64,000 nt of DNA, taken from assembly GCA_026003215.1 (NCBI GenBank), contig BPGV01000001.1:2075729-2139728 (forward strand), written 5' to 3'. Below the pieces are notes generated by a model, which worked only from the letters and a program-made list of their open reading frames with translations, made no database searches and was not told the origin of the DNA. Every line of letters begins with the position of its first letter. Position 1 is the first letter of the stretch. A program made the translations under genes and the position numbers. The stretch comes from Bacteroidia bacterium. GTDB taxonomy: Bacteria; Bacteroidota; Bacteroidia; SpSt-205. Of this stretch, positions 50,691-56,497 are shown piece after piece.

Positions 50691-50729
50691 CAACCTTGGC
50701 AGAGGAAGGGGGGAACCCTTTAAGAAAAG

Positions 50730-50737
50730 TATCTTTG
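50730..50737 (+). promoter_or_regulatory. -7 box TATCTTTG for the TPR-CHAT gene
   Basis: Exact TAnnTTTG match; 3 nt before ATG 50741. Confidence 0.7.
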
Positions 50738-50740
50738 GGC

Positions 50741-53614
50741 ATGCGATTTTGGCTATGGGGGCTTAGTAGCTTACTCGGGGCGCAGACGACTCTTTTACGG
50801 CAGGCGGACAGCCTACGCGCTGCGCGTCAGTACGCAGCCGCTTACAGCCTGTATGACTCGCTGGTACGGCAGCCGGGCGTAGCGGATACGATGCGTCTGC
50901 GGGCGTATATGGGAGGGGCGGAGTGTTTAGCGGAGCAGCGGAAGGTGGCGGAGCTTGAGCGCTGGGCGGAGGCGGGTGGTCGCTGGGCGTTGGCTCGTGG
51001 AGATACCCATAGCTATGCAGCGGTGTGGCAGTGGGTAGGGCGGGGGTATTATCTTACGGGCAGAGTATCTAAGGCGGAAGATGTTTTAGCAGGGCTTTTA
51101 GATAGGCTGCGTGGTCTGAGGCAGGTGGACTCGGTGGTGTATGCGGGGGTAGGGCATCATCTGGGGACGGCATGGTATTACAAAGGCTCCTATGAAGCAG
51201 CGGAGAGTCTTTTCAAGGCGGTGATAGGGATACGCCAGCGTAGGTTGGGACCAGACCATCCGGCGTATCTCGGTTCGCTGAATAACCTGGCGAATGTGTA
51301 TCTCGGTCAAGGGCGATATGTAGAGGCGGAGAGTTTGTATAGGGTAGTGGCCGAGATACAGTATCGTGTGTTGGGTGGAAATCATCCAGCATATCTGGTT
51401 TCGCTGAATAACTTGGCGAATGTGTATTACCGTCAAGGGCGGTATGTAGAGGCGGAGAGTTTGTATAGGACTGTGGCTGCGGTACAGTATCGTGTGCTGG
51501 GCGGAGAACATCCAGCATATTTGCTTTCGCTGAATAATCTGGCTAGTGCATATCGTAGTCAAGGGCGGTATGTGGAGGCGGAGAGTTTGTATAGGGCTGT
51601 GGCTGTGGTACAGTATCGTGTGCTGGGTGGGGAGCATCTGGAGTATTTGGGTTCGCTGAATAACTTGGGGCTTGTGTATCTTGAGCAAGGGCGGCATGTG
51701 GAAGCGGAGAGTCTACATAAGGTAGTGACGGGGATACGGTATCGTTTGCTGGGCCATGAGCATCCGGAGTATCTGATGTCGCTGAATAACTTGGGGCTTG
51801 TATATTTTGCTCAAGGGCGGTATGTGGAGGCGGAGAGTTTGTATAGGGTAGTGGCTGGGGTAATGTATCGCGTGCTGGGTGGGGAACATCCGGAGTATCT
51901 GGGTTTGCTGAATAACTTGGCGCTTGTGTATGCCGCCCAAGGGCGGTATATGGAGGCGGAGAGTTTGCATAGGGTGGTAGCTGGGATACGTTATCGTTTG
52001 TTAGGTAGGGAGCATCCGAACTACTTAAGATCTGTTCATGGGTTATCTTTGGCCTGTGCAGCGCAGGGTAAATACGGCGTAGCGGATAGTTTGTGGGGCG
52101 AGGTGATACAGGGCACGTTTATGCTGATACGGCGAGAGTTTGTAGGGCTTGCAGGGGTGCACCAGCTTTCGTTTTTAGAGAACAACCTCATAGAGCGTTT
52201 TGCGGATTTTCAGCGCTATGTAGGGGAGCGGGGATCGGCTAATCCTGCCCTTTTGCGGTTGGGGTATCGTGCGGCTCGGAGCGTGAAGGGCTTAGTGCTG
52301 AGTTCGGTGGAGGGGCTGCGGTATTTAGCGGAGCAAAGTAGGGATAGTGTGACGCAGGGGTTATACCAGCGATGGCTGCGGCTCACCCAGCAGTATGCGG
52401 CGCTGATGCTGCGGGAGGACTACGAGCAGGCGGGGCGGGTACAGAAGGAGGCGGAAGCAGTGGAGGGGGAGCTGGCTCGACGCTTGCCGGAGGTGCGTAG
52501 CTTTTTGCCGGACATAGAGCGGGAGGGAGAACCTGCGCTGCGGCGGGGAGAGGCAGTAGTGGAGATAGTGCGCTTGGCCCGGAAGGACACGGTGTGGTAT
52601 CTGTACTATGTCTTGACGCCGGGGCGGCGAGGGGTGGATATACGGCTTTTGGTGCGGCGGATACGGCGAGCGGAAGAGGAGCGGTGGGAGCGCGTGTATG
52701 AGCTGCTGCGTTCTCCTGGGGCACAGATGAGTGGGGGGGCTTATGAGGCACTATGGGCGCCAGTGGATAGCCTGCTCCTGAGGGGCATTAGGCGGGTCTA
52801 TGTGTCGCCGGATGGGGTGTACTATCGGGTGAATGTAGGGACTCTCTACGATGGACGGCGGTATGTGATAGAGCGGTATGGGGTGAGCTACGTAGCAAGC
52901 AGTCGGCGGCTTGCGGTGAGCAAACGAAGATTTGAAGGCAAAAGGCCTGTGGTGGTTGGAGGTCCAGACTTTGGTGGGGAAGCGCCGTTGGGGCAACCGG
53001 TGCGCGGTAGTCGCATGTTTCCGTATGGGATACCGCCATTGCCGGGAGCGGAGGCGGAGGCGCGGGCGGTAGCTCGGCTATTAGGCGTGGAGGCGGTGAC
53101 GGGTGCCGCTGCGCGGGAGGAGTCTGTGAAGGGTGCGGTATCGCCGAGGGTGGTACATATAGCGACGCATGGGTACTATGATGCTGGGGCGAGGAGTGGT
53201 TTATTGGGTTCGGGTTTGTTATTTGCGGGTGCGGCGGTGTGGGATAGTGTGTATCCGCCAGCTGGGGTAGAGGACGGCCGTTTGACGGCTAAGGAGGTCA
53301 GCGGTATGAATCTGCTTGGGACGGACTTGGTGGTACTCTCAGCGTGTGAGACGGGGTTAGGGGAGATAAAGGGGGAGGGCTTGTATGGGTTGCAGCGGGC
53401 GTTTTTGGAGGCGGGGGCTTCTCGGGTGATGGCGGCGTTATGGCAGGTGGATGATGCGGCGACGCGTGCGTTTATGGAGGTCTTTTATCGGCGCTGGGGC
53501 GAGGCGGGTTGGCAGGCCGACGCGATAGATACGGTGTATGAGGTTACCGTTCGGGAGTTTCGGCAGCGGTATCTGGAGCCGTACTACTGGGGGGCCTTTG
53601 TGCTGATGCGGTAG
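50741..53614 (+). CDS. Exported TPR-repeat protein with C-terminal CHAT (caspase-like) protease domain
   Basis: A 957-residue protein. A short signal peptide (about residues 1-15, ending LLGAQ) points to the periplasm or cell surface. TPR-like helices fill residues 20-470, with six almost identical 42-residue units from residue 176, each with a LNNL...QGRYVEAESLYR core. A helical linker follows. The CHAT domain (about 640-957) keeps the His-Cys dyad: VVHIATHG (His810) and VLSACETGLGE (Cys869), then AGASRVMAALWQVDD. CHAT-TPR proteins are caspase-like proteases; in some bacteria they act in defence or cell death. An exported one needs a different target. No partner is adjacent. The 3' end abuts the convergent T9SS gene. 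Confidence 0.88.
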   Translation: MRFWLWGLSSLLGAQTTLLRQADSLRAARQYAAAYSLYDSLVRQPGVADTMRLRAYMGGAECLAEQRKVAELERWAEAGGRWALARGDTHSYAAVWQWVGRGYYLTGRVSKAEDVLAGLLDRLRGLRQVDSVVYAGVGHHLGTAWYYKGSYEAAESLFKAVIGIRQRRLGPDHPAYLGSLNNLANVYLGQGRYVEAESLYRVVAEIQYRVLGGNHPAYLVSLNNLANVYYRQGRYVEAESLYRTVAAVQYRVLGGEHPAYLLSLNNLASAYRSQGRYVEAESLYRAVAVVQYRVLGGEHLEYLGSLNNLGLVYLEQGRHVEAESLHKVVTGIRYRLLGHEHPEYLMSLNNLGLVYFAQGRYVEAESLYRVVAGVMYRVLGGEHPEYLGLLNNLALVYAAQGRYMEAESLHRVVAGIRYRLLGREHPNYLRSVHGLSLACAAQGKYGVADSLWGEVIQGTFMLIRREFVGLAGVHQLSFLENNLIERFADFQRYVGERGSANPALLRLGYRAARSVKGLVLSSVEGLRYLAEQSRDSVTQGLYQRWLRLTQQYAALMLREDYEQAGRVQKEAEAVEGELARRLPEVRSFLPDIEREGEPALRRGEAVVEIVRLARKDTVWYLYYVLTPGRRGVDIRLLVRRIRRAEEERWERVYELLRSPGAQMSGGAYEALWAPVDSLLLRGIRRVYVSPDGVYYRVNVGTLYDGRRYVIERYGVSYVASSRRLAVSKRRFEGKRPVVVGGPDFGGEAPLGQPVRGSRMFPYGIPPLPGAEAEARAVARLLGVEAVTGAAAREESVKGAVSPRVVHIATHGYYDAGARSGLLGSGLLFAGAAVWDSVYPPAGVEDGRLTAKEVSGMNLLGTDLVVLSACETGLGEIKGEGLYGLQRAFLEAGASRVMAALWQVDDAATRAFMEVFYRRWGEAGWQADAIDTVYEVTVREFRQRYLEPYYWGAFVLMR
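51266..52021 (+). repeat. Six tandem 126-bp TPR-coding units
   Basis: Six in-frame units of exactly 126 bases, each starting with a TAT codon of the YLxSLNNL motif. DNA identity between units is high. A degenerate unit follows at 52022 and a partial one precedes. Copy number could change by recombination. Confidence 0.85.
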
Positions 53615-53616
53615 AT

Positions 53617-56497
53617 TTAGCGGAGGAGGGTGACACTCCCTGCCCGCTCAAAGCGCAAAAGCGGACCGCTACCACTCAAGAGCCGCAGCTCCAATAGGTA
53701 GAAATATGTCCCCTCTGGGGCTGGGCCGTGCGGTGTTTGGCCATTCCATTCTTGGCCCCACTCCCCGGCAAAAGTCAGTCGTCCCCACCTATCCCATACT
53801 TGCAGACGCCAGGCCATCACACCGGCTAAGTGGTAAGGCCGCAGTTGGTCGTTTATTCCATCACCGTTGGGGGTAAAGACATTAGGGAGTATGCCATGGC
53901 AGAGGTGGGTTTCTATCCACAGGGTGTCGCATACCTGCCAACGCTCGCTGGGATCACAGCTCGTAGTGTCCTCTGCACATACTATCGCCGGGAAGCGGAG
54001 ACCCTGGGCATAGCAATTAAGCTGAGCGCATAGCCGTAGAGAGAGCGGGTTATGTCCGGAGGCTGAGGCGGTAAAATGCGACCCATGATAAAAGTCGGGT
54101 GAGAAGGGAGGCCCTATTAGGGTGTAACTAAGCAAGGCAAAGGTATCGGGGTCTATTATAGTGAGCGTGTAGCAGAGGGTGTCCCCTGTAATCTCTGCGG
54201 GCCAGGGGTTGGGCACATCTCGGCTGAGGGTAGGAGGCCGATTCTGGGGTAGGTTTTGGGGAAGAAGCCAAAGGGTATCCATTACATCGGGGGGAGCCAA
54301 TGCGCAGGCAGGCCGATTTCCGCCTTGGATGACCCACGGGTAAGGCTGACCCGGCGGGAGGCTTCCGCAGGCGATGGTGAAGCACACCTGCACGCGCAGG
54401 CTATCCCCCGCCGAATCTTGAACCTGCACGGTGAAAGGAAAAGGGGGCTGCCCCACATCTATGAAATAAGTTCCGCCATTATGGGCGGTGTCGCGTAGGG
54501 TGACAAAAAAGCAATAGGGATGTTGAAAGGTAGGGGCAAAGGGGCTATCTTGCGTCCATGGGGGGCTGAAAAGCGCTATCGGGTAGGTGGGGCGGGATTG
54601 GATGAAGAGCTGTAGCGTATCGTAGGGGCGGTGGAGCTCTGCACAGCTGAGGGAATCGCGTACCTCTACGATGAGGGTGAGCCATTGGTTTAGGGCCTCA
54701 CAGCGGGGCTTGAAGCACACAGTGGCTTCCCAAGAAAGGCTTCCTTGGGAGGGGGGTGAACGTAAGGGAGTCTACCAGGGGCGGAATGGCTTGGATGTAA
54801 AGGGTATGTTGGCTGGGCGGCGGTGGGTCTTCTATGCGCACACGCAGGCACACGCTACTGTCCGGCCGGAGGATGAGGGTATCTGGCGCCAAGATCGTCA
54901 CGGAAGGAGCGGGATTATTCGGGAAAGGCACCAGGAAGGAAAGGCTATCTTGCCAAGTGGGATAGGGGGGGCAGGTACCCTGGGCTTCGGCGAAGAGGTA
55001 GAGGCGGACAGGAGCGGAAAAGGCTTCACATCCGCCTGTGTAGCAGACCTCTCCGAAAAGGGTGTCGTTGCGCCAGAGGGTAGAAAGGCTCACCTGGGCA
55101 GAGGGGGGTACAACCTGCGTCTGCACCGTAGGCGGAGGAGTGGGGGGGGAAGCCACCAAAAAGAAGCTTGCACAGGCCGTGTTGTCCAGTTCTACCACAA
55201 AATGTCCTCCTTGGGTGGGTAAGGCCGGCGGGGTGAGACTGCCGGTGAGAGAGCGGTAAGGGGGCGGTAGTACTTCTACCCATATAGTGTCGTGGGCTTC
55301 CGTAGTGCCGCAGGGTTCGGTTTTGCGGCCGGTGAGGTATAAGGGAAGTACCCGCCCTGTATCGGCGCACCCAAGCCGGCCACAGATAGAAAGAAGTAAA
55401 GGGTTAGTGCCACTGGCTTGGACAGAAAAGCTGCTGGGTGAGAAGGCATAAGAGAGCACAGCGGGCGGCGTAAGGGGGGCAGCGGTATCTGCTATGGTAG
55501 CGGTGAAGCAAAAGAGATTTTCGGCTACCATTTGGAGGGTGTCGCCGTGGTGGGGGAGTGCCCCGAAGTCATGGGCAACGAGGGGAGGGGGACTCGGGGG
55601 TCGGCACGGCGCCACATAAAACTGCATGTCTCGCCGTGTCTCTCCCAGAAACTGCCCATTTCGGTATTCCAGCACGGCGATGGCTACCACATAGAGGCCC
55701 GGGTTAGGAGCGCGCAAGTGAAGCAAGCCTGTGATGGGGTCTATTTGGCAGATTCCATTTGGGCCGAAAGGTTGCGAGGCGCTGTAGCCCGGAGCATAGG
55801 TGACGGTCTGGTAAGGGGGCGGACCCATGGGGTTGTTAGGGCCGACTGCGGGTGACCCTCCCTGGGCGGGGTTGACAGCTCCTTGCCCTTGCGTATTGAC
55901 GCTGTGGTAAGCCGCTACGATCTGATATACCAGCGAGTCGCCGTCGGCATCGGTAGCGCTATGGTCAAAGTAAAAGTCATTCCCAGCGCATAGAAAGAAG
56001 GGCGGACGGCGGGTAAAGCGTGGGCTATTGTTGCAGTCGGCTCGGCGGGCAGGTGGGATACGAGCCAGGTAAGTAATGCCCATATAGAGGGGCTCTTGGA
56101 GGTTAGTGATAGTGGCATTTCGGCAGCAGCGCGCCCATGCTACATAATACCCATCAGTTTGGGGTGGAAGCGTGAGATAAAAGCGATACACCCCTTCCTC
56201 TAAGCAGGTTCCCGGTCGTTGGAGAAAACACGCATCCACTCCTGCTGGGTCCCAAGGGCCATACTGCGTAAGGTATGCGGTGGTAGCCGTGTAAAGGGTC
56301 CCATCGCCTTTGAAGACATATACCGTAATCGGATTATCGTAATCAGCGCCCTGAGGGTCGGTGCAGTCGCGGTATAGCCATAACTCAAATTCATACCGGT
56401 GCTGGGCTGGATATACGCACTTGTAATACAAGTCCGCTCCTGCGATATGCCGAGCCAGCAGCTCCGAAAAGAACCCCAGCAGCAGGCCCCGCCACAT
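53617..56497 (-). pseudogene. Large secreted protein with T9SS type B (CHU_C) sorting domain, frameshifted
   Basis: Reads as one 960-codon gene broken by a single frameshift. The N-terminal part (ATG 56497, 599 residues) has a weak signal peptide, then the Cys-rich GADLYYKCVYPAQHRYEFEL, then LWLYRDC, typical of gliding-associated surface proteins, and several beta repeats. The C-terminal part (to 53617) ends with LPNVFTPNGDGINDQLRPYH, then VWDRWGRLTF and GTYFYLLELR, the type B sorting domain. The frames meet at a 6-G run (54751-54756); joining there gives TPPSQGSLSWEATVCF. It may be a real break, a switch or a sequencing error. It faces the CHAT gene with 2 bases between the stops. Confidence 0.75.
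54751..54756. repeat. 6-base G/C homopolymer at the frameshift of the T9SS type B gene
   Basis: Six G on the + strand, where the frame of the N-terminal part passes to that of the C-terminal part. Confidence 0.65.

Follow-up and report, generated by a model that had tools for sequence, protein, structure and literature searches.

The window analyzed here, a 64,000-nt stretch of the single-contig, 2.27-Mb genome of a Bacteroidia bacterium (GCA_026003215.1), contains a TPR-CHAT gene, one of five close paralogues in that genome, among which the TPR arm is diversifying while the protease half is held more constant. There is in our view an even chance that these genes make up a probably exported receptor-protease repertoire, with a diversifying TPR groove that acts as the gate of a caspase-like protease. 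A sequence-only reading of the window had singled out the gene as coding for an exported TPR-CHAT protease; that observation as a whole was confirmed, its interpretation only partly supported. Export is not the unusual feature; the repertoire and the place of its variation are the interesting part.

Gene and predicted protein

The gene (Table 1) lies in an open frame of 972 aa (50696–53614), and the ATG at 50741 starts a 957-aa product beginning with MRFWLWGLSSLLGAQ. The protein starts with a short hydrophobic N-terminus with an Ala-Gln-like site, followed in order by helical pairs, eight TPR units, a conserved middle portion, and the CHAT domain. Membership in the CHAT family is established by a Pfam match (PF12770) to residues 668–956 (E 8.4e-60), which takes in profile positions 8–287 of 289. 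The intact His810/Cys869 dyad proposed earlier stood up, both residues being invariant across 20 aligned sequences. By profile and dyad the protein is a CHAT peptidase, with proteolysis itself predicted.

Table 1. Coordinates of the features discussed (window positions except where a locus is named).
Feature	Position	Strand	Basis
TPR-CHAT protease gene, probably exported, 957 aa	50741..53614	+	Open frame, Pfam, codons, AlphaFold model
Signal-peptide-like N-terminus MRFWLWGLSSLLGAQ	50741..50785	+	Sequence; pattern common to family
Eight consecutive 42-aa KLC-type TPR units	51152..52159	+	Profile matches, residues 153–447 of the 972-aa frame; KLC1 match E 2.2e-40
Six homogeneous 126-bp repeats (array described earlier, phase moved 12 bases)	51278..52033	+	TRF, unit profile, repeat comparison
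CHAT domain (PF12770)	52742..53608	+	Pfam match
Catalytic His810 codon	53168..53170	+	Invariant in alignment; codon read
Catalytic Cys869 codon	53345..53347	+	Invariant in alignment; codon read
C-terminal frame of broken T9SS type B (CHU_C) protein; judged incidental	53617..54720	-	Open frames, Pfam, T9SS type B sorting domain
N-terminal frame of this T9SS type B protein; judged incidental	54698..56497	-	Open frames, relatives' homologue
Stop-to-stop junctions	Window 53612–53619; L017 10396–10402; L040 567–577; L047 814–824; L031 9053–9065		

The AlphaFold model has a mean pLDDT of 87.8 and a pTM of 0.83, with three short loops of the CHAT part below pLDDT 50, including 870–875 directly behind Cys869. 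The first Foldseek matches are DdvA, Csx29, separase, and KLC1 (E 1e-13 to 1e-10). Csx29, the best-studied TPR-CHAT protein, is an RNA-triggered CRISPR protease; it matches the model structurally over residues 206–957 (Z 25, rmsd 9.3; rmsd 9–13 over Csx29 superpositions in general), and by profile the CHAT part of the window protein matches CHAT proteins of type III-E systems (E 0.001). For the TPR part, a second aligner added APPBP2, a degron receptor, at Z 32, together with Rap and NprR, which are receptors for peptides, at Z values of up to 30. These fold matches were not taken as indicating function, because TPR superhelices match many peptide receptors whatever the ligand.

The top Foldseek match raises the question of a different role. 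DdvA (8rot/8rw5) is a transmembrane anti-sigma factor named as CHAT domain-containing in the PDB, and the window protein might likewise serve in envelope signaling by sigma/anti-sigma modulation, with a CHAT domain that is structural rather than proteolytic. The E-value of the match (1.3e-13) comes with a TM-score of just 0.24 and an rmsd of 31, however; the sequence profile match is not significant (E 0.12), Pfam finds no anti-sigma domain in the window protein such as would fit the anti-sigma role of DdvA, and the dyad is invariant. Such a role therefore seems very improbable.

Repeat array and position of its variation

TRF places an array at 51253–52018 (period 126, 6.1 copies, 80% matches, 0% indels); the array of six exact 126-base units noted earlier at 51266–52021 is the same one in a different phase. 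Its regularity was borne out, the period-126 array being free of indels, and by unit profile there are eight consecutive 42-aa units in all, the first and last diverged. The units had also been called highly alike, which is true in part. Compared with all units of the five close copies, each of the six interior repeats has its nearest relative in the same gene, at 77–87% nt identity, in agreement with the recent duplication or gene conversion that had been suggested; the likeness is nevertheless moderate, averaging 64% across all eight units. Copy number does vary, with 8, 9, 11, 9, and 9 units in the five close copies (between paralogues, not alleles), and from 4 to 12 by unit profile across 25 long genes.

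The concave, ligand-binding face is defined here by published positions rather than from model coordinates: in the Magliery and Regan paper (PMC1261162), the most variable, concave TPR positions are given as 2, 5, 9, 12, 13, 33, and 34. Unit positions 41, 6, 9, and 10 in our numbering are standard TPR positions 2, 9, 12, and 13. Across 45 units of the five copies, the most variable unit positions are, in descending order, 9, 10, 41, 34, 26, 38, and 6. The fit is poor in places, as unit positions 34, 26, and 38 are equally variable though outside the published set, and published positions 5 and 33 are at about average variability or below.

Between adjacent interior repeats (31 pairs), pN is 0.505 at TPR positions 2, 5, 9, 12, and 13 versus 0.186 elsewhere, an excess equalled by one in 20000 random position sets and by 72 in 20000 sets drawn from the 29 variable positions. 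For 20 close repeat pairs from the five copies, pN is 0.286 in the seven groove positions versus 0.084 elsewhere, and pS is 0.195 versus 0.387. The resulting pN/pS ratios for groove and remainder are 1.46 versus 0.22, compared to 0.71 versus 0.27 in a G007 pair and 0.51 versus 0.24 among more distant repeats of other genes; the value of 1.46 falls to 0.74 if scaled by the synonymous rate outside the groove. Positive selection and relaxed constraint are both compatible with this groove variation, and the sequence comparisons do not separate them.

Between genes from other genomes (eight sequences, three of them partial, with one self-comparison excluded), the first and last units mostly pair with their counterparts. 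A common offset links no more than four of nine units to their best matches, end units included, and identity along the shared offset is 0.10–0.40 at the five groove positions versus 0.43–0.70 elsewhere. To judge from these alignments, the interior repeats are largely without positional correspondence between related genes of the genus.

The pattern could come about through ordinary repeat evolution, with duplicated TPRs drifting under relaxed constraint in an exported protein that has a housekeeping role, as a scaffold or a processing protease, and a repertoire without any role in recognition. PMC5120217 reports fast divergence of new repeats, with relaxed and positive selection, as universal; groove change here is near the synonymous rate and not clearly above it, and variation is strong outside the groove set too. 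Drift would however predict later fixation of the repeats, yet so few units share an offset in comparisons of genes with C-half likeness reaching 71%. On the ligand face, the excess stands against the other variable positions too, and Asn is retained at unit positions 2 and 3 (in 28/45 and 35/45 units of the five copies, respectively). On balance we consider drift without recognition somewhat unlikely.

A diversity-generating route by DGR was considered for the array and rejected, as no reverse transcriptase (RVT_1, Pfam) was found in this genome.

Paralogues and the histories of the two halves

A profile search found seven CHAT genes in the genome. Four besides the window copy are 85–90% identical to it over the compared C-terminal stretch; they are located at 157 kb, with the remnant of a CHAT-gene 3' end just upstream, at 400–403 kb (two in tandem), and at 2.207 Mb. 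The remaining two are 56% and 37% identical to the window copy. The idea that these TPRs are also joined to other kinds of effector was rejected: there are at least 47 TPR_10 matches in the genome (150 of 165 candidates scored), and among the matches listed 42 are in CHAT genes, the remaining five being weak and spread over three other frames. CHAT matches were also found in all 10 congeners, at 2–9 each with fragments counted. The highest number in the 41 genomes searched is 29, in a 7.2-Mb genome of the same class (G013). In a C-terminal tree (without support values) the five close copies cluster together, and so do three from G003, two from G001, and two from G007; one group spans four genomes.

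The product of the 37% copy is 1,351 aa long, and its gene belongs to a block that also contains rplS, rpsF, rpsR, rplI, and ExbB/ExbD/TonB genes (Pfam). A counterpart occupies this block in 10 of the 11 genus genomes, with a fragment in G007, and also in G011, which belongs to another genus. By the unit profile, the TPR units of these syntenic proteins are weak and number no more than 3 to 6 in each. Vertical inheritance of this TPR-CHAT gene across the genus is a further point in favor of ordinary repeat evolution.

Two other loci may be mentioned. A more diverged TPR-CHAT gene of this genome (L019 3741–11035, at about 2.174–2.181 Mb) is flanked by four paralogous 158–186-aa proteins and a PD40-OmpA protein; the small flanking proteins have signal-like starts, and the one that was scanned has no Pfam match. 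The carA region holds a TPR-CHAT gene both in this genome (L017) and in G009 (L022); the two genes belong to separate branches of the family and are oppositely oriented.

The two halves of the close copies have different histories. Amino acid identity among the five is 84–91% in the C half and 53–85% in the N half, the latter taken as running from past the first 25 aligned residues up to the first TPR unit. Identical synonymous codons make up 63–75% in the C half versus 31–54% in the N half for nine of the ten pairs (p 6.9e-8 to 8.6e-3, Fisher); the pairs are not mutually independent. The tenth, the window copy with L017, is reversed (75% versus 83%, p 0.14). Twelve pairs from six other genomes include one each from G001 (p 0.011) and G007 (p 0.008) with the same contrast and ten with none, at synonymous identities of 0.34–0.42 in the C half and 0.23–0.50 in the N half that are largely saturated. 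These low C-half values mean that codon bias is no explanation for the five copies. The C halves from G001 are sisters and its N halves are not (again in trees without support values). Within the C half, run-length tests for conversion gave raw p<0.05 in four of ten cases, none after Bonferroni correction. The contrast would fit converted C halves as well as replaced N halves.

Predicted export

The N-terminus of the protein looks like a signal peptide, and the earlier proposal of one was upheld at the level of sequence. By a crude hydropathy test (8-residue stretch, cut at 1.6), 33 of 36 genus proteins are above the cut, and the window protein, at 1.54, is one of the three below it; an Ala-Gln-like site is present by pattern in 33 of the 36, and the window protein has one. 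That such a start would be unusual for the family did not hold. Of 40 homologues found in genome contigs, 30 were examined for their N-termini; a crude test showed a hydrophobic stretch there in 26 of the 30, and L128, one of the four without it, is incomplete at its start. DdvA, as a transmembrane CHAT protein already in the PDB, also counts against it. Going by hydropathy, the window protein is probably exported, either to the periplasm or carried by vesicles. It has no sorting-domain match and ends in the CHAT domain, so it has no T9SS-substrate signature.

Gene neighborhoods

Downstream, the gene faces the broken T9SS type B protein described earlier, which was found as two overlapping minus-strand frames with 2 bases between the stops. 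The homologue is a single open frame of 963–1024 aa in four relatives, and the interruption seen here is therefore either genuine or an indel from misassembly. Overlapping parts of the T9SS gene are present in G007 (L146) as well. A link to the TPR-CHAT gene was not seen: no TPR-CHAT gene is present in 16 fetched regions around relatives' T9SS and tsf homologues, several of them cut by contig ends, and the T9SS neighbor looks incidental.

It had been noted that no neighbor supports a defense role, and this agrees with the neighbors identified for the close copies outside the tandem pair, namely carA, uvrA (Pfam), and ileS (by eye), where no defense link was found. PADLOC-DB 2.0.0 has no specific defense model for the protein. 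Membership in an anti-phage defense system was rejected, as PADLOC gave a generic TPR model alone (E 1.9e-5).

The check for conserved neighbors that had been suggested gave one candidate. This is c10, a small protein of 130–165 aa if complete, with a signal-like start, a coiled coil, and one TM segment (features judged by eye). It has matches at 19 places in 8 of 11 genomes, some degenerate, and a TPR-CHAT gene or remnant is within about 200 bases of it at 11 of 18 fetched places: stop to stop at seven, start to start at three, and degenerate at one. Six of the stop-to-stop junctions have about 2–5 bases between the genes. In 119 genomes of the class, four genus members included, there was one non-genus match, at 29% identity. 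In relatives, c10 is thus a candidate partner of TPR-CHAT proteins.

The protease might then be half of a two-gene envelope system, in which it acts on c10 or is held by it, for example with an effector or inhibitor freed by cleavage. Besides its frequent proximity, c10 is itself amplified in tandem, and there is a precedent in Csx29, which cuts Csx30, a protein of its own system (PMC10028731). However, c10 relatives in this genome (38–49% identical) stand alone at three places without TPR-CHAT, five of them in tandem at 1.29 Mb, and the five close TPR-CHAT copies are without c10. Genes on opposite strands are no operon, the export and TM features of c10 were assigned by inspection, and the co-residence may be hitchhiking, because c10 and TPR-CHAT are both multicopy families. 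A two-gene system of this kind is distinctly unlikely as an account of the family. The c10-like genes of this genome (L165 5670–8022, L166 4766–5242, and L167 4421–4915) comprise a tandem array and singles, some with stops.

TPR-CHAT stop codons recurrently face the stop of a neighbor at a distance of one to a few bases, and the neighbors differ (Table 1). This is perhaps a matter of compactness only, or a trace of the mode of gene insertion.

Proposed mechanism and significance

For the reading as a receptor-protease repertoire, which we prefer, the KLC-type TPR superhelix would be the recognition arm and its ligand presumably a peptide. The mostly conserved Asn-Asn pair of each repeat could grip an extended peptide backbone, with specificity set by the hypervariable helix-A positions 2, 9, 12, and 13. 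Binding in the groove might be relayed allosterically, through the final TPR and the conserved middle portion, to the CHAT domain, which would then cleave a substrate, by analogy with Csx29 on movement of its eighth TPR. TPR arms may be renewed by repeat duplication and shuffling, and catalytic halves shared more recently among the dispersed copies; from this we propose that several sensors feed one cutting activity, which could serve recognition or envelope surveillance.

A bolder version would have these proteins as envelope counterparts of NLRs: exported, caspase-armed, and recombination-driven, with a common protease half, a peptide-reading TPR groove that tells kin, phage, or neighbor peptides apart, and, in some lineages, c10 as the cognate partner or the substrate. 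We think it rather unlikely in this full form. In any case, a form that is multicopy, probably exported, and variable on its recognition face would put a caspase-type switch outside the cytoplasm, such a family would give bacteria diversifying receptors without a STAND NTPase or a DGR, and c10 supplies a directly testable candidate partner or substrate. No prior description of exported TPR-CHAT repertoires was found in the open-access literature searched, and on that basis they seem to be undescribed before.

Comparison with known systems

DdvA is like the window protein as a membrane CHAT protein and differs in its anti-sigma role. KLC TPRs, APPBP2, Rap, and NprR match the TPR part by sequence (KLC1) or by fold; to our knowledge none of them has a CHAT domain. 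Csx29 (type III-E, Craspase) shares the overall plan, a TPR arm and then a protease region with an active CHAT domain. According to PMC10028731, it is bound to Cas7-11 and activated by RNA, with a change at the eighth TPR relayed to the active site. The window protein, unlike Csx29 so described, has a signal-like start, a multicopy family, and a diversifying array, and no Cas7-11 (gRAMP) gene was found beside it, where the neighbors are ileS (by eye) and the T9SS gene.

EACC1-caspase two-gene systems, as outlined in PMC7159879, join a caspase-superfamily protein to a small single-TM protein, much as TPR-CHAT and c10 would be paired here. They differ in that c10 has a coiled coil and its gene is mostly on the strand opposite the protease gene, and EACC1 is absent from its Pfam listing. 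In Acropora corals, an independent TPR-CHAT expansion with widely varying TPR length is described in PMC12314368; the architecture is the same and the expansion likewise lineage-specific, but the coral families are eukaryotic, with hundreds of copies and extensive tandem duplication.

Fungal NLRs differ from the window protein, which is bacterial and probably exported, has its protease domain at the C-terminus, and has no NACHT or NB-ARC match in Pfam at E 0.001. Their TPR, WD, and ANK repeats, as described in PMC4986451, are internally conserved and variable in number, under concerted evolution, with variation on the concave TPR face as modelled on KLC2. The window family resembles them in its homogeneous repeats, their variable number, and the variation on the concave face, here between paralogues rather than alleles.
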